Source: a virus. From it: a stretch of DNA of 30,074 nt. Made by a program: the position numbers and the translations under genes. Where the stretch lies: IMG/VR virus record IMGVR_UViG_3300021139_000086, positions 1 to 30,074 of that record; one strand, written 5' to 3'. The notes under the pieces were generated by a model. That model saw only the letters and a program-made list of their open reading frames with translations. It was not told the DNA's origin and did not search any database. Shown one piece after another: positions 2 to 17,993 of the stretch; position 1 is the first letter of the stretch, and each line of letters starts with the position of its first letter.

Positions 2-109
2 CGTGAGGCGTGTGCAAAAACTGTCGAAACGATTAAAGCCTACAGAGAACTTGAGAAGGTTTGCTTTAAGTTTGCCGCAAAAACAATCCGAGCAAGGGGG
101 CAAGCATGA
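2..109 (+). CDS. 3' end of an upstream gene, unknown function (partial)
   Basis: An open frame enters from the left edge and ends at a TGA at 107-109. It encodes about 35 residues, ending in a Lys/Arg-rich stretch (KTIRARGQA). The stop overlaps the ATG of the next gene as ATGA, the same coupling used elsewhere in this operon, which supports it being the real end of a translated gene. The fragment is helical and basic with two Cys. Too little is present to assign a function. Confidence 0.6.
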   Translation, partial: REACAKTVETIKAYRELEKVCFKFAAKTIRARGQA

Positions 110-333
110 CACAAGAATACGAAGACGAAGTTATGGCGCACCGCTACCTCTACTATGTGTTGGCAGAACCCGTGCTTACAGACGCCGACTATGACACGCT
201 TGAGCGTAGAGCAAGAGAAGTTTGTCCTCCAGAATCGTCTGTACACAAAGTAGGATCTTCGTTGCCCAGCAGCTACACAAAAAAGCAAGTGGGTTTAGCA
301 ACACAGTTTTTAACAAGAAACGCCCAGCAATGA
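106..333 (+). CDS. Stand-alone LigA-type Ia (NMN-binding) domain protein, 75 aa
   Basis: Seen: residues 11-36 match the N-terminal Ia domain of bacterial NAD+-dependent DNA ligase. Aligned with E. coli LigA, Tyr22, Asp32, Tyr35 and Asp36 correspond to Y16, D26, Y29 and D30. The His23 position is Tyr17, and Tyr occurs there in many LigA proteins. A VGSSLPSSY segment near residue 50 lines up with the VG linker that precedes the nucleotidyltransferase domain. The protein then stops, with no KxDG adenylation lysine, OB fold or BRCT. Known: Ia binds the NMN half of NAD+ in the first ligase step. Inference: this is either half of a split ligase or an NAD+/NMN-binding protein with another role. The start overlaps the preceding stop (ATGA), and its own stop overlaps the polymerase ATG. 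I see no rest of a ligase anywhere in the window. Confidence 0.8.
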   Translation: MTQEYEDEVMAHRYLYYVLAEPVLTDADYDTLERRAREVCPPESSVHKVGSSLPSSYTKKQVGLATQFLTRNAQQ

Positions 334-2342
334 ACGCACCATACAAAACACTGCTGGTCATCGACTTCGAGACGCGCTGGAGTTCTAAAGACTACACACT
401 TTCCAAGATGACAACAGAGGAGTACATCCGTGACAAACGATTCAAAGCATTCGGTGCGTGCATCCACGAGTTCGGCACAGACAAAATCACACAGTGGTAT
501 CGAGGCGATGAACTACGTCGAGTCCTATCCACCTATGACTGGAGCACCACTGCCGTGCTTGCCCACAACGCCCAGTTTGATGTGTCCATCCTTTCTTGGT
601 GCTACAACGTCCACCCCTGTTTTATCTTTGACAGCCTCAGCATGGCACGCGCTCTACGGGGCGTCGAAGTCGGCAATAGTCTCTTCAAACTTGCCGAAGC
701 GTTTGAACTCCCGCCCAAGGGCGAGGCCGTGCATTCCACGGATGGCCTACAAGAACTCACGCCCGAGATTGAAGCGGAGCTTGCGGACTACTGCAAGCAC
801 GATGTCTTTCTTTGCGAAGAGTTTTTCAAACGCCTCGCTGTAGGCTACCCAACCAAAGAACTTCGACTCATTGACATGACGTTGAAGATGTACACGCAAC
901 CCGTGCTGGAGCTAGATCGTGAGATGCTCATCAAAGCACTATATGAAGAAGGAGTTCAACGTGAGTCACTACTTACAAAACTCGGCATCGAAGAAACTGC
1001 GCTTGCATCAAATCCTCAATTTGCAAAGCTTCTCGAAACTCTTGGTGTACCTGCGCCAAAGAAAAAAAGCAAGACCACCGGAAAGCAAACTCTTGCGCTT
1101 GCAAAGAATGATGCGCTCTTTCAAGCGCTCCTCAACGGCGACAATGAAGATGTCCGACTGCTTTGCGAGGCTCGCCTTAAAGTTAAATCAACCACGGAGC
1201 GGACCCGGGCGCAGCGTTTTCTTGATATCAGCGGAAGGGGGGCGCTACCTGTTCCACTTTCATACTACGGGGCACTATCAGGACGTTGGACAGCGAGCAA
1301 AGGCAGCGCAATCAACATGCAGAACCTCAAGCGAGGCTCATTCCTACGCAAAGCAATTATGGCTCCCGAGGGCTATGAACTCATCGTCGGCGATCTATCG
1401 CAAATTGAACCGCGAGTTCTTGCGTGGCTTTCGGATTACGACGACATGCTCTACATCTTCAATGCTGGGGGCGACCCTTACGCCGCTTTCGGCGCTCAAA
1501 TGTTCAACATCCCCGGCCTCACAAAAGAGAGTCATCCGGACTTACGCCAGTCTGCCAAGAGCGCGTTGCTTGGATGCGGCTACGGATTGGGATGGGCGTC
1601 ATTTAGTGCGCAGCTACTTGTTGGCTTCCTCGGTGCGCCCCCAGTTAGGTACGGCAAGGAGTTCGCTAAAAAGCTGGGCGTAGATAGCGAGTACATTCAC
1701 AAGTTCCTTGAGAACACGGACAACCTCAAAAAGCTTGAAGATATACCGCACACCTGCACCACGCAAGAGTTGTTGATTCATTGCGTTGCGGCCAAGAAGA
1801 TCATCGACATCTACCGCGCCACAGCGCACCCTGTGACTTCGTTCTGGCAAATGTGTGAGGGCTTGATTCAAACCGCGCTGTACGGCGGCAAAGAGTACAC
1901 GCACAAGTGCGTGATATTCAAGAAAGAAGAGATCGTATTGCCTTCAGGCATGAGCCTGCTCTACCCCAACCTGCGCCGTGAACCCGAACTAGACGCTGAC
2001 GGCAAGAAAGTGCTGGGCAAGAAAGGCGATGTCGTGATGAACTGGGTGTATGGCGAAGAGGGCAAGAAGCCCACCAAGCTGTACGCAGGTAAGGTGACAA
2101 ACAACGTGACGCAGGCGGTTGCGCGAGTCGTGATGACTGACGGCATGTTGCGTGTGAACAAGCGCTACCCTGTCAAGGGAACAGTGCATGATGAGTTGAT
2201 TGCGGTTGCACCGCAAGAAGAAGCTAAGGAAGCCACGGACTGGGTGTTGGAGCAGATGACCATCACTCCTTCCTACATGCCGGGGATTCCTCTAGGGGCT
2301 GACGGTGGCCATCACCGTAGATATGGACTAGCAAAGGGCTAA
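330..2342 (+). CDS. polA: Family A DNA polymerase with 3'-5' exonuclease domain
   Basis: 670-residue replicative polymerase, about the length of T7 gp5. The exonuclease occupies roughly residues 8-170: Exo I is IDFET (D12, E14), Exo II is HNAQFD (N80, D84), and Exo III is YCKHD (Y154, D158). Polymerase motif A is GDLSQIEPR (D355), motif B runs from R406 through K410 to Y418-G419, and motif C is VHDEL (H620, D621, E622). All catalytic residues are present. The residue equivalent to E. coli Pol I Phe762 is Leu414. A longer in-frame ORF begins at 222, but I chose ATG 330: it overlaps the preceding stop as ATGA, and the protein then opens directly on the exonuclease fold (MNAPYKTLLVIDFET), whereas the extra 36 residues would sit on top of the preceding gene. 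No 5'-3' exonuclease domain is fused. Confidence 0.96.
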   Translation: MNAPYKTLLVIDFETRWSSKDYTLSKMTTEEYIRDKRFKAFGACIHEFGTDKITQWYRGDELRRVLSTYDWSTTAVLAHNAQFDVSILSWCYNVHPCFIFDSLSMARALRGVEVGNSLFKLAEAFELPPKGEAVHSTDGLQELTPEIEAELADYCKHDVFLCEEFFKRLAVGYPTKELRLIDMTLKMYTQPVLELDREMLIKALYEEGVQRESLLTKLGIEETALASNPQFAKLLETLGVPAPKKKSKTTGKQTLALAKNDALFQALLNGDNEDVRLLCEARLKVKSTTERTRAQRFLDISGRGALPVPLSYYGALSGRWTASKGSAINMQNLKRGSFLRKAIMAPEGYELIVGDLSQIEPRVLAWLSDYDDMLYIFNAGGDPYAAFGAQMFNIPGLTKESHPDLRQSAKSALLGCGYGLGWASFSAQLLVGFLGAPPVRYGKEFAKKLGVDSEYIHKFLENTDNLKKLEDIPHTCTTQELLIHCVAAKKIIDIYRATAHPVTSFWQMCEGLIQTALYGGKEYTHKCVIFKKEEIVLPSGMSLLYPNLRREPELDADGKKVLGKKGDVVMNWVYGEEGKKPTKLYAGKVTNNVTQAVARVVMTDGMLRVNKRYPVKGTVHDELIAVAPQEEAKEATDWVLEQMTITPSYMPGIPLGADGGHHRRYGLAKG

Positions 2343-3727: not shown

Positions 3728-5290
3728 ATGGAAATCATTGACAACAAAGCACTTCTCATCAGAACCAGACAGCCAGAAAAATACAGCATCATTCCTAGAA
3801 GCCAAGTCGTTGAAACACACGCTGATGGCTCTGCGTCTGTCGCTGTGTTTTGGGGGTTAGATGAAGCGCGGGTACTGAAAAACATAGGCGTCAAAGATGT
3901 ACCTTCGCCTATCACTAAACGCTATGCGTGGCCGGGCAGATTCAAACCTATGGCGCACCAAGTGGAGACAGCATCTTTCTTGACGCTCAACCGCCGCGCT
4001 TTTGTGTTCAGCGAACCCGGCACAGGCAAGACGCTTTCGGCACTGTGGGCTGCGGATTACTTGATGCAACGTGGAGAGGTGCGCCGCTGTTTGATTCTGT
4101 GTCCTCTGTCGATCATGCAAGCCGCGTGGATGCAGGACTTAAACAACAGCATCATTCACCGCAGCGCCATCATTGCCCACCACCCCAAGGCAGCAACGCG
4201 CATCGAGATGATTCAGCACAGCTATGAGTTTGTGATCGTCAACTACGAAGGCTTGAACCTGATCGCTGATGAAGTCAAAGCCAACGGCAAATTCGATCTC
4301 GTGATTGTGGATGAAGCCAATGCGTACAAGACTGCCACAACCAAACGCTGGAAGTCACTGAACTCAATCATTGCGCCCAACACGCACTTGTGGATGATGA
4401 CAGGCACGCCTGCTTCGCAGTCCCCCGCCGATGCCTACGGCTTGGCCAAGCTAGTCAATCCCAAAGGTGTGCCAGCGTTCTTCACCGCGTGGCGCGACAA
4501 GGTGATGCACAAGGTGACAATGTTTAAGTGGGCACCAAAAGCCAACGCGCACGATCTTGTTCATGAAGCGTTGCAACCCGCGATCAGGTTCACCAAAGAA
4601 CAATGCTTGGACTTGCCGCCCGTGGTGACGATGACCCGCGAAGTGCCGATGACAGCGCAACAAAACAAGTACTACAACATGCTCAAAGAGCGTATGCTGG
4701 TACAGGCCGCAGGCGAAACAATCAGCGCGGTCAACGCTGCCGCTGGTGTGAGCAAGCTGTTGCAGATCAGTTGTGGCGCAGCCTACACGGACGAAGGTGA
4801 AGTGGTGGAGTTCGACGCCTCGCCCCGCCTGTCGGTACTAGAAGAAATCTTGGAAGAGACCGATCGCAAGGTCATCATCTTCGCGCTGTTTCGCTCCAGC
4901 ATCGACACCATCAACCGCCACCTCACCAAGCACGGCATCGCCAACGAGATCATTCAGGGCGATGTGCCAGCCACCAAACGTGCCGACATCATCAGGCGCT
5001 TTCAAAATGAACCACAACCTCGCGTGTTGGTGATGCAGCCCCAAGCCACAGCGCATGGGATTACGTTGACTGCCGCCGACACTGTGGTGTTTTTTGGCCC
5101 CTTGATGAGCGTGGAGCAATACGTGCAGTGCTGCGCACGCGCTGACCGCAAAGGACAGACCGCCGCCAAGGTGACAGTCATCCACATCTCGGGTAGCCCA
5201 ATCGAGAAAAAGATGTTTAAAGCATTAGAAGGAAAGGTTAGTGACCATTCACTTTTAACCCAAATGTTCGACACAGAAATTAAATCTTGA
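3728..5290 (+). CDS. SNF2-family (SF2) DNA helicase/translocase
   Basis: 520 residues with the two RecA-like lobes of SNF2 ATPases. Motif Q and the segment before motif I are MAHQVETASFL (about 75-85). Walker A is EPGTGKT (K101). Walker B reads VIVDEAN (D195, E196), with Asn where DEAH or DEGH is usual. Motif III is MTGTPAS near 225-230. In lobe 2, VQCCARADRKGQ near 465 is the classic SNF2 motif VI with its two arginine fingers, after a GITLTAADTVVFF motif V. The N-terminal 70 residues are a small extra domain. A good AGGA lies 6 bases before ATG 3728. Such phage helicases are thought to work in replication restart, recombination or branch migration. The translocase activity is well supported, but the precise role is not. 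Confidence 0.92.
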   Translation: MEIIDNKALLIRTRQPEKYSIIPRSQVVETHADGSASVAVFWGLDEARVLKNIGVKDVPSPITKRYAWPGRFKPMAHQVETASFLTLNRRAFVFSEPGTGKTLSALWAADYLMQRGEVRRCLILCPLSIMQAAWMQDLNNSIIHRSAIIAHHPKAATRIEMIQHSYEFVIVNYEGLNLIADEVKANGKFDLVIVDEANAYKTATTKRWKSLNSIIAPNTHLWMMTGTPASQSPADAYGLAKLVNPKGVPAFFTAWRDKVMHKVTMFKWAPKANAHDLVHEALQPAIRFTKEQCLDLPPVVTMTREVPMTAQQNKYYNMLKERMLVQAAGETISAVNAAAGVSKLLQISCGAAYTDEGEVVEFDASPRLSVLEEILEETDRKVIIFALFRSSIDTINRHLTKHGIANEIIQGDVPATKRADIIRRFQNEPQPRVLVMQPQATAHGITLTAADTVVFFGPLMSVEQYVQCCARADRKGQTAAKVTVIHISGSPIEKKMFKALEGKVSDHSLLTQMFDTEIKS

Positions 5291-10218: not shown

Positions 10219-10381
10219 AAAGGGGCAGGGATTTTTCATCCCTTGCCTTGACACCGATGCCGTGCGCGAAGAAGGCTTGAGAGCCGCAGTCTCACACAGA
10301 ATGCTGGATGCTCGGGCTATGCCCGGCATCCGTGACGGCCTCATCGGGGTGTGGTTTTTTCGTAGACCCCACGGACATTAG
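10178..10381 (+). CDS. Last gene of the replication operon, 67 aa, unknown function
   Basis: It starts inside the last 41 bases of the primase gene in another frame and ends inside the last 41 bases of the minus-strand giant gene. Either ATG of the MM pair (10178 or 10181) could be the start. No strong ribosome site is visible, so coupling is likely. The sequence looks like a compact folded protein, not a shadow frame: HYPWEKTEKGQGFFIP, then a helix, then LDARAMPGIRDGLIGVWFFR. It resembles short phage proteins with a YPW-x-GQGFF opening that I have a general sense of but cannot name. It fills what would otherwise be a 122-base gap between the two operons. Confidence 0.65.
   Translation: MMKLKIHYPWEKTEKGQGFFIPCLDTDAVREEGLRAAVSHRMLDARAMPGIRDGLIGVWFFRRPHGH
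10224..10247. terminator. Hairpin near the operon junction, weak terminator candidate
   Basis: GGCAGGGAT pairs with ATCCCTTGCC (one bulged base) around a TTTTC loop. Read on the minus strand, it is followed by CCCCTTTTC, a short U-run, so it could end transcription of the late operon just past the giant gene. Read on the plus strand it has no U-run. It lies within the 67-residue coding frame. Confidence 0.4.
10306..10331. other. Strong imperfect palindrome at the convergent junction
   Basis: GGATGC-T-CGGGC, loop TAT, GCCCG-GCATCC: an 11-bp stem with one bulged T. It ends 9 bases short of the stop of the minus-strand giant gene. No U-run follows on either strand, so it may act as an RNA 3'-end stabiliser or as a transcription barrier between the colliding operons. 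Confidence 0.5.
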
Positions 10382-13300
10382 AAGCGATTTGAATGCGCAT
10401 TTTTTGGATTTCATCCAAGCGTGCGCGTTTCTCATCAGGCGTCAAGCTAGACGCTTTGATCGCCATTTCCGCTTTCTTTAGTTTGCCCATCGTCTCTTGC
10501 AAGTTGCCCGTCATTGTTTTAGTGGCAAGCATGTTGACGTTTTCTTGCAAGTACTGACGCGCTTCCGCACCGTTGCCCTCTTTGACCAACTGGTTGTAGG
10601 TCTTCTGCACTTCACGGGCGCGAGCCATGTGATCGTACATATCGCTCACCATGCCGCCAGCATCTTCTGGTTGGAACGCAGCGCCAATAACCGGCATCTC
10701 CGACAGCTTCTTGGTTGGCGCAGGAACGCCATTGCCGGGGCTGGCCGCACTGATTGCTTGCGTGAAGGCGATGCCCATCGTGCCGGTGTATCCTCGAATC
10801 AGGTTCTCCAGTTTGATAGGTGAAGTACCTGTGATAGCACCAAGGCCTTTGGCCAACTCGGATGTGCTATCGCGGTAACGGAACTGGGCTTCGCGCTCTT
10901 GCTCGGCCTTGGACTCCAACTCGCGCCCTGTGAAGAACGAATGGTTGGTGGCGTTCTCAACCAAAGGTTTGACGCCTGCTGGCATGAATCCAGAAGTCGC
11001 GCCGGGGATGGTTTGAATGGCAATTGTCTTGAATGCCTTGTACGCATCTTCCGCGCCAGCATCGCTGGCCATCGAGTTAATGATTGCCTCGGGAATTGAC
11101 TTGAAGATGTAACCGATTTCAAACGGCACAGGCACGCGCAGCGCCTCTTTCATGCCGGGCAAATGCACAAAGAAGTTGCCGTACTTCTCGTCAGGCTGTG
11201 CATTCTTGTACAGCGGGTCATCTTGCATCAGCATCGTGTAAGCAATGGCAGTACCGGCAAGCGCCGCGCCACGGCGGTACAACTTGCCTTGGATATCCAA
11301 GCGCTCGTTCATTGGCATCTTGCCTGTCATGGCGCGATACAGCACGTCCAAGCTTTGCAACTGGGCGTTGAAGAACGGAATCAATGTGGATGCCAAACGC
11401 ACGCTGGGCGACATGCCCTTGCGGTTAAAGTTCATGGACTCCAAAGACATGAGCGTGGCTTCCATCTCAGACAGCCCTTGGCGAATGTAGGAGTCGTACT
11501 GGGCGCGGCGGGTCAGCGCATCGGCTTCCATTGCCACGGCTTCGGCCTTGGCCACCAGTTGAGACAAACCAATCTTGCCGGATTGGAACTCGCCCAAAAT
11601 GCGCGTCAAGTCCTCGTTGCCGCCAGTGAACACCTGACCGCCCACAATACCGCGTGACTCCAGCGTGCCTTTGGTATCCATTTTCCCAATCTGTTTGATT
11701 GCCGCCATGACTGGCGTGAAGTCAGCGCCGGACGTCAGGGGCGCGGCCACCGAGTCACGGAAAATCTGACGAGCGGAATACAAAGGACTCACGGTCACTG
11801 CGCGGCGCAACAATGTTGCTGGCATGGCCATTGCGCGAACAAGCGCGGAGTTGTTGACCGGAATACCTTCCATGCCTTTGACCAACAAGTTTGAGGGGAT
11901 GCCTGCGGCATCGGTGTCCACGCGCACGTACCGGTCTTGGCCGTCTTCGCGGAACTGAACCACGTTGGGGCCGCTGGCTTCGCCGCCGTAGAACGATGCA
12001 AGACCCAAACTTTGCAACTCAAACATTGCGTTCTTGGTGGCTATGTTGCGCAAGCCCATGTCCATAATCATGCTGGTGTTTTGCACCGAGCTTGTCAAGA
12101 AGTCAAAAATCTTTTGGTTGCCACCAATCAACTCGCGCAACTGGGGTTGGTCTTTCAAACTGCCCACGCGATACGTGCCTTCACCCCCAATAACCAATTC
12201 AGCCTCGCCGTTGCGATCTCGGTAGTACGGGATGTAGTCATTGCTCTTGGAAAGCGAGGCGGCAGTCTCTTTAGAGATCACGCCCATGTCTTGCAGGAAG
12301 TTGACTAGGTTGCGGTTGTACTCGTTGTACTGGTTGCGTGCGTCTTCAAAAACATCATGCAACTCTTTGTTGGCTTCAATTTTGCCCACTGCATTCTTCA
12401 AGTCTTGTTCAGACACATCAAAGTTCAGCACGTCAGCACCCACACGCTCTGCGCGTTTGCCGGCCAAATAAAGCGTGAACAAACGATTTGCTGCCGCAGG
12501 GTTCATGCCCGGCGCTTTGCCCAGAGTCTTGGCAATGTTGGCAAGGTTTGCGCCTTTTTGACTTTCAATGACGTATTCCGTGCGGCCATCGGCGCGTTTG
12601 ATCGCTACTTTTTGTGGCACGCCATTGGCTACCGCCTGCTGCGTGAAAGACATTTTTTGGTCTGCCATGCGCAAGAAGAACATCATCTGAGTACCCTTGA
12701 GCGGGTCCATCATGGTTTGCGCAATCTTCTCCAGCGGTGCCAAACGATCTAGCCATTTGGTGCGAAAGTTCAGCCCAAGGTTGGCGTCAATTTGTTGCTG
12801 CATGGACGGCTTGTCGGCAATGATGCGTTCGGCCAGTCCCAGCTCGTCCTCAAAACCCTTGGCTGTCGGCGCTGCACGCGCCTTGACTTCGGCTTCAAGT
12901 TTGGCCGAGGGTTTGAAAATCTTGTCGATTGCGTCAGTAGCGGTTTTGAATGCGTCACTGCGAGTGTCCACGCCGAACATGCGCATGATGAACTGCTTGA
13001 GCTTGTCAAAAAATGACTCGCCTTCCACTTTGGTGCTGGCCAACTTGTCTTGCAGTTTGCTGTTAGACATGGCTTCAGCCACGAATTCTTCCAAGTCTTT
13101 CTTGGCGTACTCTTTGGCAAACGCAGGGTCTTCTTTGATTTGGTCGTAGAGCTTTTGCAAGTCGTCACGGGCTTTGCGCTGTGTCGGGGTCAAGTCGGCG
13201 TTGTCGGCGCGAAGAACGCGCATGGTAGCCGCGTGAACCATTTCATGCACCAAATCTTCTTCGGTCATGTTTTGATCGTCCAACGCAATCCGGTTTTCTG

Positions 13301-16300
13301 CGGGGTAGTACGCGCCGCCAGCAGGCTTGCCATCCACCATCAAGTCTTGTGTTGTACCAATTTTTGTGCGCATCAACAAAGGGCGCAGGCGTTCGGCCAA
13401 ATCTTTCACAAATTGTGTAGACCCGTGCTCGGCCAGTTCGTCGGCCACATCCAGCATCCGGCCATCGCGGATAGCTTCGGTGGTTGTTTTGCGCAAATAC
13501 GTCACTGGGGCGCTTTCGTATTCACCGCCGGCTTCGCGTGCCAATTCGTCTTTGCCGTACTTCTTTTTGCTTTTGGCCAGCTCTTTAGCGGCAGCAGCTT
13601 CTTGGGTGCTAATTTCTTTTTGAATTTTTGCGGCAGCATCTGTTCGTTTTTGTGCAGCATTGAGCTTGTTGGTCAACGCTTGCGGTACAGGTTTACCTTT
13701 TTCAGTCAAGAAATCTACACGGCGTTTGAACTCGGCTAATTCTGCGCGGCGAGCAATCAAAGTATCGGTAACAGCATCGGCGCGGCCAACAACGTCTTTG
13801 CGTTGCCCCGTTTGTTCGGTACGACCTGTGCGCACATGTTTTACGACCGGGCCTCGGCGTGCGGAAGGGAGTTCTGAAGGTAGGTTTTCTTTAGCATTTC
13901 TAGCGCGTGCTTGTTGAATTTGCGCTCTTTCAAAAGCTTCATCGGCTTCGGTGCGGTCTTTAATAGGCGTGCGAACCAAAGGCGCTTCGCTTTCAATACC
14001 GGCAAGCTCCAGCTCAACCCGCGCTTCGTTTTCTTTGGCAATTTGCAGTTTTGATTCTGCATTGCCCAGTTTAGTAATATTAGTTTCGGTCGGTTCAAGC
14101 TGCTTAAGCGCTTTGACGGCTTTCGTGTATTTGTTGACTTCGTTATTCCACGACCCCAGTTCGCGTTTCAAATCGTCTTTGTCTTCTTTGATCGCGCTGA
14201 CATCACGTTGCACACGCTCACCTTCCAACCCCAGCCCTTCACGGCCACGTTGGATGGCCGCACGACGTTTTTCTTCGGCGGTGCGTTCTGCTTCCGGTTG
14301 ACGGTTTTCTTCACGCGCTTTAGCGGCGGCATCTGCTTGTGCTTTTTGCGCGGCTTCGTTTTGCAGCGCAGCAAGTTCTGCTTGTGCTTTCTTGAAATCC
14401 TCTTCAGCTTTTACAGCGCGGTCAACAGCAGGTTTGGCCAAAGTCATTTGTGCAGCATTGGTGGCTTGCACAGCCGCAGTCAGTTCTTTGGCTACAGCCA
14501 AACCTTCCTCGGCGCGTTTGAGTGCAACACGAATAGCTTTTTCTTGATTCAGCACCGCAGGAGCGCTAATCAAAATGGACATGTCTTCGGGTTCTTGCAT
14601 CAAAGCATCCCGCATGGCGGTGACTTCGGCTTCGCGTTCACGCAAATCGTCCACTTGTTTTTGCCACGCAGCTTGCGCTTCTGTAGCTGCGGCAATGTCG
14701 GTCTGCATTTCTCGGTCAAACTCGTTTGAAACGGCCACAGTTTTTTGCAATTTTTTCAAGTTGCGTTCGTATGTGTTTTTTGCCGTTTCAACTTTGTTTT
14801 TTAACGTGGGCGCAGCTTTGCCAAAACCTTGCAATGCAGCCAAGTTGTCTTTGCGTTGTTTTTCAATTGCGTCGCGCAGCCCTTGAATGTTTTTAGAGTC
14901 CAACATTTTTTGGAAGTTAGACGGGGTAGCGCGTTGCGTTTGCACTTCGGCTTCGGGGCCAGCTTCGGGGAACAATTCGCGTTGAGGCTGGGCGCTGGTG
15001 CGTTGCAACTCTTCTGGGGTAGCACCGGGACGGGTCGCGCTGCGGCCTGCAACCTCATGCGCTTTCAGCATTTCGCCCAAGTCCCGCACAGCAAACTCAT
15101 CAGGCAAGTTGCCTTCAACAACACGCTGCGCTTGTTCAGCGGCAAGCTTCACAAACTCTGGATCATTGTTGGTTTCTAAGCCGTCACGCAGTTGTTCAAG
15201 AAACTGTTTAGTAGTGGCATCAGTTTGTGCGCTGGCTTCTTTGCCTTTTTCTTGGCCAAACAACTTGGCCATGTCTGCCAACGACCCCACGCGAGCCGGA
15301 GCTTTTTCTGTAGTGGTTGGTACAGCGCGAGTACGGCCTTCACGCAGCGCCATCGTAATCATGTTGAGTGCGTGCTGCTTTGTATCGGTGGCCAGTCTAG
15401 GCTCGTTGCGCAAGGTCAACTCGTCAGGCGCGGCAATCCGAGGACCTGTTTTGGGAGGCGCAAGTTTTTCGGCCAGTGTTGACTGTTGTGTTTGGGCTTT
15501 ACGAGTTGCGGCTTTGAACAAGTTTTGATACACCGCTTCGCGTGTAATGTTTTGTAAAGCTTTGACGCTGATCGCAGGATCTTCAAACTGCCCCCAGTTG
15601 TTGGTCAGCGTATTCAAACCTTCCAGCGCACGGGCGCGAGCTTCGGCGCGTTCCCAATCTTCCATTGGAGGCAAACCAAACGCTTTGCGACGCGCTTCAA
15701 TTTCAGCCGCGTGCTGTGCCACATACTGCTCTTTGGCGTTGCTCAACAGCTCCGCACGTTTGCCGGGGAGCATAATTTTCTTGGACGCCAGTGTGCGAGC
15801 CATGCCCAGCAAGGTGTTGCGTTGCTCCGAAGCAAACTGATCTGCCTCGGCTTCATTAACGCGGAGTTCTGGAAGTTTGCTGCGGCCAATAATTTCAGCG
15901 GCGTTTTTGCCGCCTTCCGTGCCAAGACCGCCTTCGGTTGGGATAGGGCGTGTTGCATCCAGTTGACGCTTGATCTCGCCTTGCAATGCTCGGTTGCCGG
16001 TCAGACGCGCAATAGCAAGCTGTGCTTGCAAGTCTTTGTAGTTCTGTTTCTTTTGGCCAAGACCCAAATATACATCGCCGGGATTGATCTGGCCGTTGGC
16101 CAAAGGTAGGCTTTGCACCAGCTTATCAACCATCTCATCGTGGGGTTCTGCTTCTGGCGCACCTTCGCCCAAATCTTCTTGTGCAGACTTAAGGCGTTCG
16201 GAAATCAGCTTGCCTTGTGTGACGGTAGGTTCTGGCCGCGCAGGACGCGCAGGATGTCCAATGGGTAAACGGCCTTGGTTTTTTGTGGTGACAACGGGAA

Positions 16301-17993
16301 GCGTTGTTTCGGTTTCAGGAGCGCCTTCACCCAAGCGGCGAATGCCTTGGATTTCTTCCAAGGTCTTACCAAAATTGGGTTGCGCACGCGCAGAAGACAC
16401 CAAGTCTTCGGGCTTTTGCGTGAACATGCTACGCGCACGTTCTTGTGCAGTGCTAACTCGGGCAGCTTCGGCTTTGGCTGCGGCATCGGCACGCGACTTG
16501 AGCTGCATTTTGATGCCGCCCAGCAACGCTTCGCTTTGTTTTGCCGTGACGCCGGGGATTTGCGTGCGGTTTTCCAACAGCGCTTGCGCTTGCTTGGGGT
16601 CTTGCATCAAATAGTCAAGGTAGTCCTTGATTTGCGGCGCGGCTTCGCGGTCTTTGGCCAACGCCATTTGTTGCGCGGCGTAAGTTTCGTGGGGTGCAGG
16701 AGGTGCGGGGTGCTGCGTGTAGTAGCCTGTTTCGTCCTCTTGAGGTACGGTTGGGCTGACCTTCTTGGGAGCAGTCGTCACGCCTTGCATTTGCTCAAGC
16801 GCATATTCCTCCGGCGACATGTCCTTGACGCGCTGGTATTCGGCAATAGCTGCTTGGCGGTTTTCGGCCTGTTGCGCGTACTTGCGCAAGTACTCTTCTT
16901 GATCTTTCTTTTGGCGTGCGGCTTCGGCTTTTTGTTGTTTGGTCAGCACGGCTGGCGCAGCAGGGCCTTCGGCCACTTCTTCTGGCGCAGGTTGGCGCAG
17001 TGTGGGTTCTGGAACTTCTTCTGCGGGTTGTTGTGCCGCAGGTGCTTGCACACCGGGTTGTTGCGTCGGTTGTCGAACAGGTGCGGGTTGCTGAATCTTT
17101 GCTGCACTGCGCTCAAACGCATGGCCGACAGGTGCTAGCGCACCGCCAAGAACAGCGCCGCCAAGGAAGTTGTCGTAATACTCTTGGCGTGCTTCGGGGT
17201 CGTTGATGCTCAAACCTGCTTGCAGGCGTTCAAAGAATTGTTGGGCAGCTTCGGTCAAACCTTCTGCACCCATTGCTTTCAGGGTCGCACCACCGTAGCT
17301 AGCCAGCGTTTGGCTAAGTCCTTGTTTGGCAACTTGGGCGGCTTGTTGCTCGGTCAACTCGATGCCGGCTTTTCCTAGAATGCTGCGCACACCGGGAAGC
17401 ATATGCAAAGAAAACACATCCAAAGCAGCTTGTGGCAAGGCAGCGGCAGCGGCGGAACCCAATGAAGCGTTCTGCAAAGACTTGTTCTCGTCCACTTGAC
17501 GCGCCAAGTTAGTGCCTGTGAACTGGCCAAGAGACGCTAGTCCTGCACCAACTTCACCCGCACCAAGACCCAATGCACCAACAGCAGCAGCTTCAGGGGC
17601 AGCAGCCGCACCGATAAGCGGCGCGACCATGTAGGGCAGGGAACTTCCGGCCAGTTCTTTGAATTTTGTGAAGGGTGCTTGAGACCAGCTCTCAGTGGTT
17701 GGCGCAAAAACGTCTTTGCCGTGCTGCACTTGCTCTTCGTAATATTTTTGAGCAGCGTCTTGGTTCATCAAGCCAAGCTTGCCGGCAGTAAGTGCTGCCG
17801 AACCTTTGAGGCCTGCGATACCCGATTCAAGAGCAGGAACAAACCCCGATTCAGGGTGCGCTTCGGGTCTGGAGGGTTCTGCCGGTTGGAGCTGTTTCAG
17901 CGCCGCATAGTACGCTTCCGAGTCGGTAAGAGGGCGGTCTGATTCAACATTAAACGCGCCCTGTCCGGGAATCTCAACCTTGTATTGCGGCAT
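10341..17993 (-). CDS. Giant polyvalent/ejected virion protein with zincin motif and LPD38-like C-terminus, 2550 aa
   Basis: The short N-terminus (YKVEIPGQGAFNVES) is a type often seen at the start of large injected phage proteins. Residues about 105-300 are hydrophobic, Ala/Gly-rich helices. About 300-1500 is Pro/Gln/Ala/Glu-rich and largely coiled coil. A metallopeptidase core is EDLVHEMVHAATMRVL (H1583, E1584, H1587) with a following EEFVAEAMSN helix carrying the likely third ligand. From about 1690 to 2330 a long conserved-looking region contains NDYIPYYRDRNGEA and IPFFNAQLQSLDVLYRAMTG, which I assign to the LPD38-type large polyvalent protein region. A basic helical tail ends the protein. 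Known: polyvalent proteins are packed in the virion and delivered with DNA, and they carry effectors against host defences. T7 gp16 is a functional analogue for channel formation. GAGAGGG precedes ATG 17993. The lytic transglycosylase is a separate gene just upstream. Confidence 0.88.
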   Translation of the reverse strand: MPQYKVEIPGQGAFNVESDRPLTDSEAYYAALKQLQPAEPSRPEAHPESGFVPALESGIAGLKGSAALTAGKLGLMNQDAAQKYYEEQVQHGKDVFAPTTESWSQAPFTKFKELAGSSLPYMVAPLIGAAAAPEAAAVGALGLGAGEVGAGLASLGQFTGTNLARQVDENKSLQNASLGSAAAAALPQAALDVFSLHMLPGVRSILGKAGIELTEQQAAQVAKQGLSQTLASYGGATLKAMGAEGLTEAAQQFFERLQAGLSINDPEARQEYYDNFLGGAVLGGALAPVGHAFERSAAKIQQPAPVRQPTQQPGVQAPAAQQPAEEVPEPTLRQPAPEEVAEGPAAPAVLTKQQKAEAARQKKDQEEYLRKYAQQAENRQAAIAEYQRVKDMSPEEYALEQMQGVTTAPKKVSPTVPQEDETGYYTQHPAPPAPHETYAAQQMALAKDREAAPQIKDYLDYLMQDPKQAQALLENRTQIPGVTAKQSEALLGGIKMQLKSRADAAAKAEAARVSTAQERARSMFTQKPEDLVSSARAQPNFGKTLEEIQGIRRLGEGAPETETTLPVVTTKNQGRLPIGHPARPARPEPTVTQGKLISERLKSAQEDLGEGAPEAEPHDEMVDKLVQSLPLANGQINPGDVYLGLGQKKQNYKDLQAQLAIARLTGNRALQGEIKRQLDATRPIPTEGGLGTEGGKNAAEIIGRSKLPELRVNEAEADQFASEQRNTLLGMARTLASKKIMLPGKRAELLSNAKEQYVAQHAAEIEARRKAFGLPPMEDWERAEARARALEGLNTLTNNWGQFEDPAISVKALQNITREAVYQNLFKAATRKAQTQQSTLAEKLAPPKTGPRIAAPDELTLRNEPRLATDTKQHALNMITMALREGRTRAVPTTTEKAPARVGSLADMAKLFGQEKGKEASAQTDATTKQFLEQLRDGLETNNDPEFVKLAAEQAQRVVEGNLPDEFAVRDLGEMLKAHEVAGRSATRPGATPEELQRTSAQPQRELFPEAGPEAEVQTQRATPSNFQKMLDSKNIQGLRDAIEKQRKDNLAALQGFGKAAPTLKNKVETAKNTYERNLKKLQKTVAVSNEFDREMQTDIAAATEAQAAWQKQVDDLREREAEVTAMRDALMQEPEDMSILISAPAVLNQEKAIRVALKRAEEGLAVAKELTAAVQATNAAQMTLAKPAVDRAVKAEEDFKKAQAELAALQNEAAQKAQADAAAKAREENRQPEAERTAEEKRRAAIQRGREGLGLEGERVQRDVSAIKEDKDDLKRELGSWNNEVNKYTKAVKALKQLEPTETNITKLGNAESKLQIAKENEARVELELAGIESEAPLVRTPIKDRTEADEAFERAQIQQARARNAKENLPSELPSARRGPVVKHVRTGRTEQTGQRKDVVGRADAVTDTLIARRAELAEFKRRVDFLTEKGKPVPQALTNKLNAAQKRTDAAAKIQKEISTQEAAAAKELAKSKKKYGKDELAREAGGEYESAPVTYLRKTTTEAIRDGRMLDVADELAEHGSTQFVKDLAERLRPLLMRTKIGTTQDLMVDGKPAGGAYYPAENRIALDDQNMTEEDLVHEMVHAATMRVLRADNADLTPTQRKARDDLQKLYDQIKEDPAFAKEYAKKDLEEFVAEAMSNSKLQDKLASTKVEGESFFDKLKQFIMRMFGVDTRSDAFKTATDAIDKIFKPSAKLEAEVKARAAPTAKGFEDELGLAERIIADKPSMQQQIDANLGLNFRTKWLDRLAPLEKIAQTMMDPLKGTQMMFFLRMADQKMSFTQQAVANGVPQKVAIKRADGRTEYVIESQKGANLANIAKTLGKAPGMNPAAANRLFTLYLAGKRAERVGADVLNFDVSEQDLKNAVGKIEANKELHDVFEDARNQYNEYNRNLVNFLQDMGVISKETAASLSKSNDYIPYYRDRNGEAELVIGGEGTYRVGSLKDQPQLRELIGGNQKIFDFLTSSVQNTSMIMDMGLRNIATKNAMFELQSLGLASFYGGEASGPNVVQFREDGQDRYVRVDTDAAGIPSNLLVKGMEGIPVNNSALVRAMAMPATLLRRAVTVSPLYSARQIFRDSVAAPLTSGADFTPVMAAIKQIGKMDTKGTLESRGIVGGQVFTGGNEDLTRILGEFQSGKIGLSQLVAKAEAVAMEADALTRRAQYDSYIRQGLSEMEATLMSLESMNFNRKGMSPSVRLASTLIPFFNAQLQSLDVLYRAMTGKMPMNERLDIQGKLYRRGAALAGTAIAYTMLMQDDPLYKNAQPDEKYGNFFVHLPGMKEALRVPVPFEIGYIFKSIPEAIINSMASDAGAEDAYKAFKTIAIQTIPGATSGFMPAGVKPLVENATNHSFFTGRELESKAEQEREAQFRYRDSTSELAKGLGAITGTSPIKLENLIRGYTGTMGIAFTQAISAASPGNGVPAPTKKLSEMPVIGAAFQPEDAGGMVSDMYDHMARAREVQKTYNQLVKEGNGAEARQYLQENVNMLATKTMTGNLQETMGKLKKAEMAIKASSLTPDEKRARLDEIQKMRIQIASNVRGVYEKTTPR

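Follow-up and report, generated by a model that had tools for sequence, protein, structure and literature searches.

The DNA under analysis, called the window here, comprises an entire linear virus record (30,074 bp) and begins inside an operon; the phage genome is therefore probably incomplete. Close to its start lies a small gene for a protein that resembles domain Ia of the NAD+-dependent DNA ligase LigA (Table 1). The preliminary description had judged this gene not to be broken, and the four-base ATGA overlaps at both of its ends, together with an identical protein in three other contigs, agree with that view. The small gene upstream, of which the window holds only the 3' end, is complete in contig L002 and has no family match in Pfam or PHROG. 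The same contig encodes an identical Ia protein and carries 4.1 kb of extra upstream sequence, which holds small ORFs only. The Ia protein has no match among the PADLOC models of anti-phage defence proteins.

Table 1. Positions of the features in the window and in the records compared with it
Feature	Record	Positions	Strand	Remarks
3' end of the small gene directly upstream in the operon	window	2..109	+	no Pfam or PHROG match
ATGA overlap, stop of the upstream gene and start of the Ia gene	window	106..109	+	
Stand-alone Nlig-Ia (LigA domain Ia-like) gene	window	106..333	+	ATG to TGA, 75 aa
ATGA overlap, stop of the Ia gene and start of the polymerase gene	window	330..333	+	
Family A DNA polymerase gene, downstream neighbour of Ia in the operon	window	330..2342	+	Pfam DNA_pol_A 2.6e-22; phrog_17 1.6e-66
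SNF2-like DNA helicase of phrog_62	window	3728..5290	+	Pfam and PHROG matches
Large ORF	window	10341-17993	-	2550 aa; seemingly a giant multi-domain phage protein
Complete small gene upstream of Ia	L002	3831-4124		97 aa
Threonine dehydratase gene directly after Ia	L005	10208-11134		phrog_7093, 5e-55
Single ORF with HAD-like and Ia domains	L092	9599-10204		201 aa
Solo Ia homologue	L117	8001-8198		contig of an Opitutus MAG
gp62 of phiEco32	L110	3944-4273		
Nlig-Ia fused to a phrog_62 helicase	Rhodococcus phage ReqiPepy6	70167-71795 (L111:3944-5572)		542 aa, annotated DNA ligase
Known solo Nlig-Ia examples				PF22745, phrog_6466: phiEco32 gp62, ECBP2_0056, Dp-1 gp16, Arthrobacter phage Tallboi gp42

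Taken as a single sequence, the Ia protein gives matches to LigA domain Ia that are modest and consistent. Pfam Nlig-Ia (PF22745) is matched at E=1.8e-4 with 22.5 bits, under the curated cut-off of 27 bits, which is a model threshold and no biological feature. The PHROG NAD ligase match has E=3e-5, and the PDB match, a Thermus-type LigA, has E=1.2e-4. A profile built from ten stand-alone homologues finds E. coli LigA at E=2.9e-7 in an alignment that spans the SPxxxVG segment, and all other convincing PDB matches of this profile are likewise LigA. The viral nsp2 structure 7ldk, which the profile also returned (E=0.007), is unrelated and was set aside as a chance match.

The AlphaFold2 model of the Ia protein comprises three helices with a mean pLDDT of 94.6, which makes the domain Ia fold a high-confidence prediction. 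In the PDB, the best 25 Foldseek matches of the model are NAD+-dependent DNA ligases without exception, with probabilities of 0.69-1.0 and E-values of 0.026 at best, as expected for a helical protein of 75 residues. Among viral proteins the model matches ligases and small proteins of the solo-Ia type best, with TMq up to 0.69. The product had been described as ending just before the adenylation domain, and in the alignment its C-terminus does fall at about the point where that domain would begin. The fold, the NMN-contact residues, and the SPxxxVG segment are common to the window protein and LigA. In contrast, the window protein is encoded by a separate gene and lacks the adenylation, OB, zinc-finger, HhH, and BRCT domains. 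A full LigA has an adenylation domain with the catalytic lysine, and no PF01653 is found in these 75 residues. The window protein is almost certainly a solo Ia, that is, a free-standing and intact LigA domain Ia as first described, which is borne out by sequence, profile, predicted fold, and selection.

The NMN contacts of LigA, which are taken here to be Tyr22, Asp32, Tyr35, and Asp36 in E. coli numbering, correspond to Tyr16, Asp26, Tyr29, and Asp30 of the window protein. All four were said to be kept in this protein, and they are invariant in 10/10 stand-alone homologues from unrelated phages. In the wider alignment, Y16, Y17, D26, and G50 are invariant in 23/23 sequences, full ligases among them. 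The invariance of the stretch AHRYLYY is biased because it served partly as a search seed; Asp26, Tyr29, and Asp30 lie outside the seeds used for the alignment scans. The conserved contacts show shared ancestry and suggest that the Ia protein may bind an NMN/NAD+ ligand. Since the protein stops before the region of the adenylation domain of LigA, only the NMN half-site is present.

The Ia genes of contigs L002-L004 differ from that of the window at 0, 0, and 2 nucleotides, and their product is identical. Both differences are in L003 and both are silent, and the adjacent polymerase in these contigs carries 9-17 amino-acid-changing differences. Between lineages, pS of the Ia gene reaches 0.63-1.0, with synonymous sites near saturation, against a pN of 0.17-0.40. 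Judged by these substitution patterns, the Ia gene is under purifying selection. The stand-alone homologues measure approximately 72-117 aa in unrelated phages, and the domain also occurs in a 155-aa ORF (L091) and in a fusion (L092). Even though its small size and ligase ancestry might recall a full ligase gene in decay, or one truncated by a sequencing frameshift, such an origin is hardly credible. A frameshift onto a full ligase, which the preliminary description had kept in view, is excluded by the identical protein in three contigs with silent changes only. The same observation speaks against decay, as do the conservation of length and residues across unrelated phages, the purifying selection, and the sequence downstream of Ia, which contains no trace of a ligase and continues with the polymerase as the next gene.

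Whether another phage gene supplies the rest of a ligase can be judged from domain searches. The window contains neither DNA_ligase_aden (PF01653), in line with the earlier remark that no adenylation domain is visible in it, nor the ATP-ligase domain (PF01068). PF01653 was found in 0/14 stand-alone carrier contigs of up to 90 kb. The sole positive among the 15 relative contigs searched for it was L093, which had been returned as a relative, proved to be a true full ligase, and was used as a positive control. PF01068 was found in 0/12 contigs searched. Both domains are absent from 20 polymerase-related contigs of up to 68 kb and from 12/12 complete isolate phage genomes that carry a solo Ia. 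The domain searches are positive in control genomes and the method therefore works. The metagenomic carrier contigs may be incomplete. The window and the searched contigs L002-L004 yielded no NAD+ or ATP ligase, but the window genome probably extends beyond its record, with relatives that reach 63-68 kb. The proposed search for a ligase lacking Ia elsewhere in the genome is thus negative for the window, the carriers, and the polymerase relatives, as far as an incomplete record can answer it.

These results bear on two of the uses suggested at the outset. One is half of a split NAD+-dependent ligase whose other half is another phage gene. Such a ligase does exist in the T5-like phage Stitch, in which subunit A holds the adenylation and OB domains and subunit B the HhH and BRCT domains. 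As in the window, the domains of an NAD+ ligase are here a matter of separate phage genes, and the missing half could lie outside the incomplete window record. However, Stitch divides its ligase after the OB domain and not after Ia, and both parts are present and adjacent, whereas the window record has Ia alone. Moreover, the adenylation domain is found in no stand-alone carrier examined. A split ligase is very improbable on these grounds, and neither this use nor the other one, a partner that modifies a phage ligase, agrees with the lack of any ligase catalytic domain in the window, the carrier contigs, and the 12 isolate genomes.

Free-standing proteins of this kind, which the preliminary description did not mention, are not new. 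Iyer, Burroughs, Anantharaman and Aravind (2022) counted 81 phages with a solo Nlig-Ia. These phages lack any ligase with one exception, and the ligand residues are conserved; the authors proposed a role in NAD+ sensing or in shielding NAD+ from NADase effectors (PMC9503650, section 3.5.1). A full-text literature search returned no other paper with the name Nlig-Ia and no experimental study of solo Ia. The known solo Nlig-Ia proteins are stand-alone and occur in single copy, as is the case for the window protein, and they belong to genomes without a ligase catalytic module; the window record, which is probably only part of a genome, has none either. They also share with it the ligand residues of the Tyr16/Asp26 type, and they too often have genes for nucleotide metabolism or replication close by. 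The label 'DNA ligase' is attached to many solo Ia genes, including those of phiEco32, Dp-1, and Arthrobacter phages, although in the genomes tested no ligase catalytic domain was found. For phiEco32 gp62, Pfam additionally gives Immunity protein 41 at E=3e-4, a weak match under the cut-off.

The window protein differs from these known solos in several respects. The latter score 69-131 bits against PF22745 as opposed to the 22.5 bits of the window protein, and the subfamily to which the window protein belongs is mostly under the cut-off, with L092 passing it and L091 passing it in one of two scans. The window subfamily has a shorter helix-loop (inter-helix) segment and keeps the LigA-like SPxxxVG, which the known solos lack. 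A profile of the window subfamily gives 35.2 and 34.5 bits with the Ia domains of full ligases versus 15.9-29.7 bits with the known solos. Conversely, a profile of the known solos gives 34.6 bits with the MaMV ligase versus 18.3-29.2 bits with window-type proteins. What is new here, by these profile scores, is a divergent and ligase-like subfamily of solo Ia that resembles full ligases more than it does the known solos. The simplest reading is two radiations from a ligase-like Ia, possibly with separate origins, a matter that a domain of 60 residues cannot settle. Searches of 50,697 isolate phage records found no clear member of the window subfamily, only full ligases, distant known solos, and weak matches. 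Two of the matches were rejected: a Felixounavirus nicotinamide phosphoribosyltransferase (E=3), matched by chance at residues ~295-350 in a protein with no Nlig-Ia, and a protein of Leuconostoc phage LLC-1 without any Pfam match.

For comparison with the window, 80 relatives of its polymerase were retrieved. Leaving aside the three contigs that encode the identical protein, the relatives with polymerases at 72-78% identity carry no copy of the Ia gene. Most of the relatives inspected have another small gene ahead of the polymerase, often one whose end reads ...PPKEMMN or nearly so, and these alternative genes are usually joined to the polymerase by the same 4-base overlap (L007-L077). The site immediately before the polymerase gene serves as a slot in which the small gene varies. 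L084 encodes an Ia that is 61% identical to that of the window and is also ATGA-joined to a polymerase, even though the two polymerases are only 33% identical. Since close polymerase relatives lack Ia and L084 has the same arrangement with a distant polymerase, the Ia gene acts as a mobile accessory passed from phage to phage. Nlig-Ia is matched once per carrier record. A rescan of the viral contigs with the ten-member alignment added no further lineage, and a scan of genome contigs added one, the L117 contig of an Opitutus MAG. There the solo Ia homologue lies near DnaB-like and SSB-like ORFs, and the MAG genome has two full LigA genes. The surroundings of the gene look phage-derived, so the assignment to the MAG is tentative and the contig is probably a phage.

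The genes around Ia vary among the carriers. PolA adjoins it in the window and in L084. ThyX lies near it in L085; in L005 it follows two genes later, and in phiEco32 and ECBP2 it comes two genes earlier. A dUTPase is nearby in L006, RecA and a 5'-3' exonuclease in L091, UvsX and a clamp loader in Dp-1, and PolI in Arthrobacter phage Tallboi. No clear replication gene adjoins it in L086, L087, EFDG1, ATCCB, and BpsS-36. Ia is often located in modules for replication or nucleotide metabolism, an association that is purely descriptive. The metabolic gene that separates Ia from ThyX in L005, a threonine dehydratase match, is an unusual one.

Two fusions are of note. In Rhodococcus phage ReqiPepy6, the protein annotated as DNA ligase is an Nlig-Ia joined to a helicase of phrog_62 (SNF2/DEAD-type), and the genome has no ligase catalytic domain. 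This Nlig-Ia is, like that of the window, without a ligase module, but it is fused to a helicase while the window Ia is free. The window helicase belongs to the same phrog_62 family as this fusion partner. In L092, an N-terminal HAD-like domain with a DFDGT motif (phrog_1238, E=2e-36; Pfam HAD weak) is followed by a C-terminal Ia.

The favoured explanation, with a probability somewhat short of even, is that the Ia protein is a ligand-responsive NMN/NAD+-binding regulator or adaptor that is independent of a phage ligase. Its ligand would be NMN, or NAD+ through its nicotinamide half; the protein would act in trans, without a phage ligase, during phage DNA replication. It may report or buffer the NAD+/NMN state, possibly upon the firing of host NADase defences. 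Of the three uses put forward in the preliminary description, an NAD+/NMN-binding protein apart from ligation, offered there as speculation, fits best and had already been proposed in PMC9503650. No nicotinamide or nicotinate phosphoribosyltransferase of NAD+ salvage occurs in the carrier records (0/24), which leaves no visible link to NAD+ counter-defence. Moreover, as cellular NAD+ is millimolar, shielding of the bulk NAD+ pool appears stoichiometrically implausible.

The main alternative, possible but unlikely, is that the Ia protein modulates the LigA of the host. Acting in trans, it would dock at the site on the LigA nucleotidyltransferase domain at which NMN is normally clamped by domain Ia, and would slow, redirect, or recruit the ligase for phage replication. 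The tested carriers have no ligase of their own and must therefore use that of the host, although this absence is weak evidence because most phages lack a ligase anyway. The frequent position of the Ia gene within replication modules is in keeping with such a role, as is the similarity of the window subfamily, whose profile scores higher with full-ligase Ia (35 bits) than with the known solos (16-30 bits), and the helicase fusion of ReqiPepy6 would place Ia at the DNA. On the other hand, a free Ia would have to compete with the tethered Ia of LigA in this putative interaction, for which the literature search gave no published precedent. The fuller proposal, that a free Ia tunes or recruits host LigA at the phage replication fork and arose separately from the known solo Nlig-Ia, is rather doubtful.

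The fusion in ReqiPepy6 also bears on a further explanation, in which Ia is an NAD+-responsive subunit of the phage's own replication apparatus, such as an adaptor that serves the phrog_62 helicase or the adjacent polymerase. A phrog_62 helicase is present in the window operon and in L084, L086, L090, Dp-1, and Qui, and the Ia-ATGA-PolA adjacency recurs in L084 with its distant polymerase. However, phrog_62 is a common family and is found in only 9/24 carrier records, and the polymerase is not a constant neighbour. A partnership with the adjacent polymerase is weakened by the relatives at 72-78% identity that lack Ia, and the subunit role as a whole is improbable.

The favoured regulator or adaptor and its alternatives concern the same object, a cofactor-binding domain of an essential enzyme that many phages keep alone. 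To the known solo Ia the window adds a second, ligase-like subfamily, which is not found among isolate phages and which moves between unrelated phages with its ligand residues retained. If the LigA explanation is true, a host enzyme would be taken over by a copy of one of its own domains. The two fusions, with a HAD-type domain and with a DNA helicase, offer starting points for work on function. Because carriers such as phiEco32 are in culture and the protein has 75-110 aa, the choice between an NAD+/NMN sensor, a LigA modulator, and an adaptor is tractable by simple assays.
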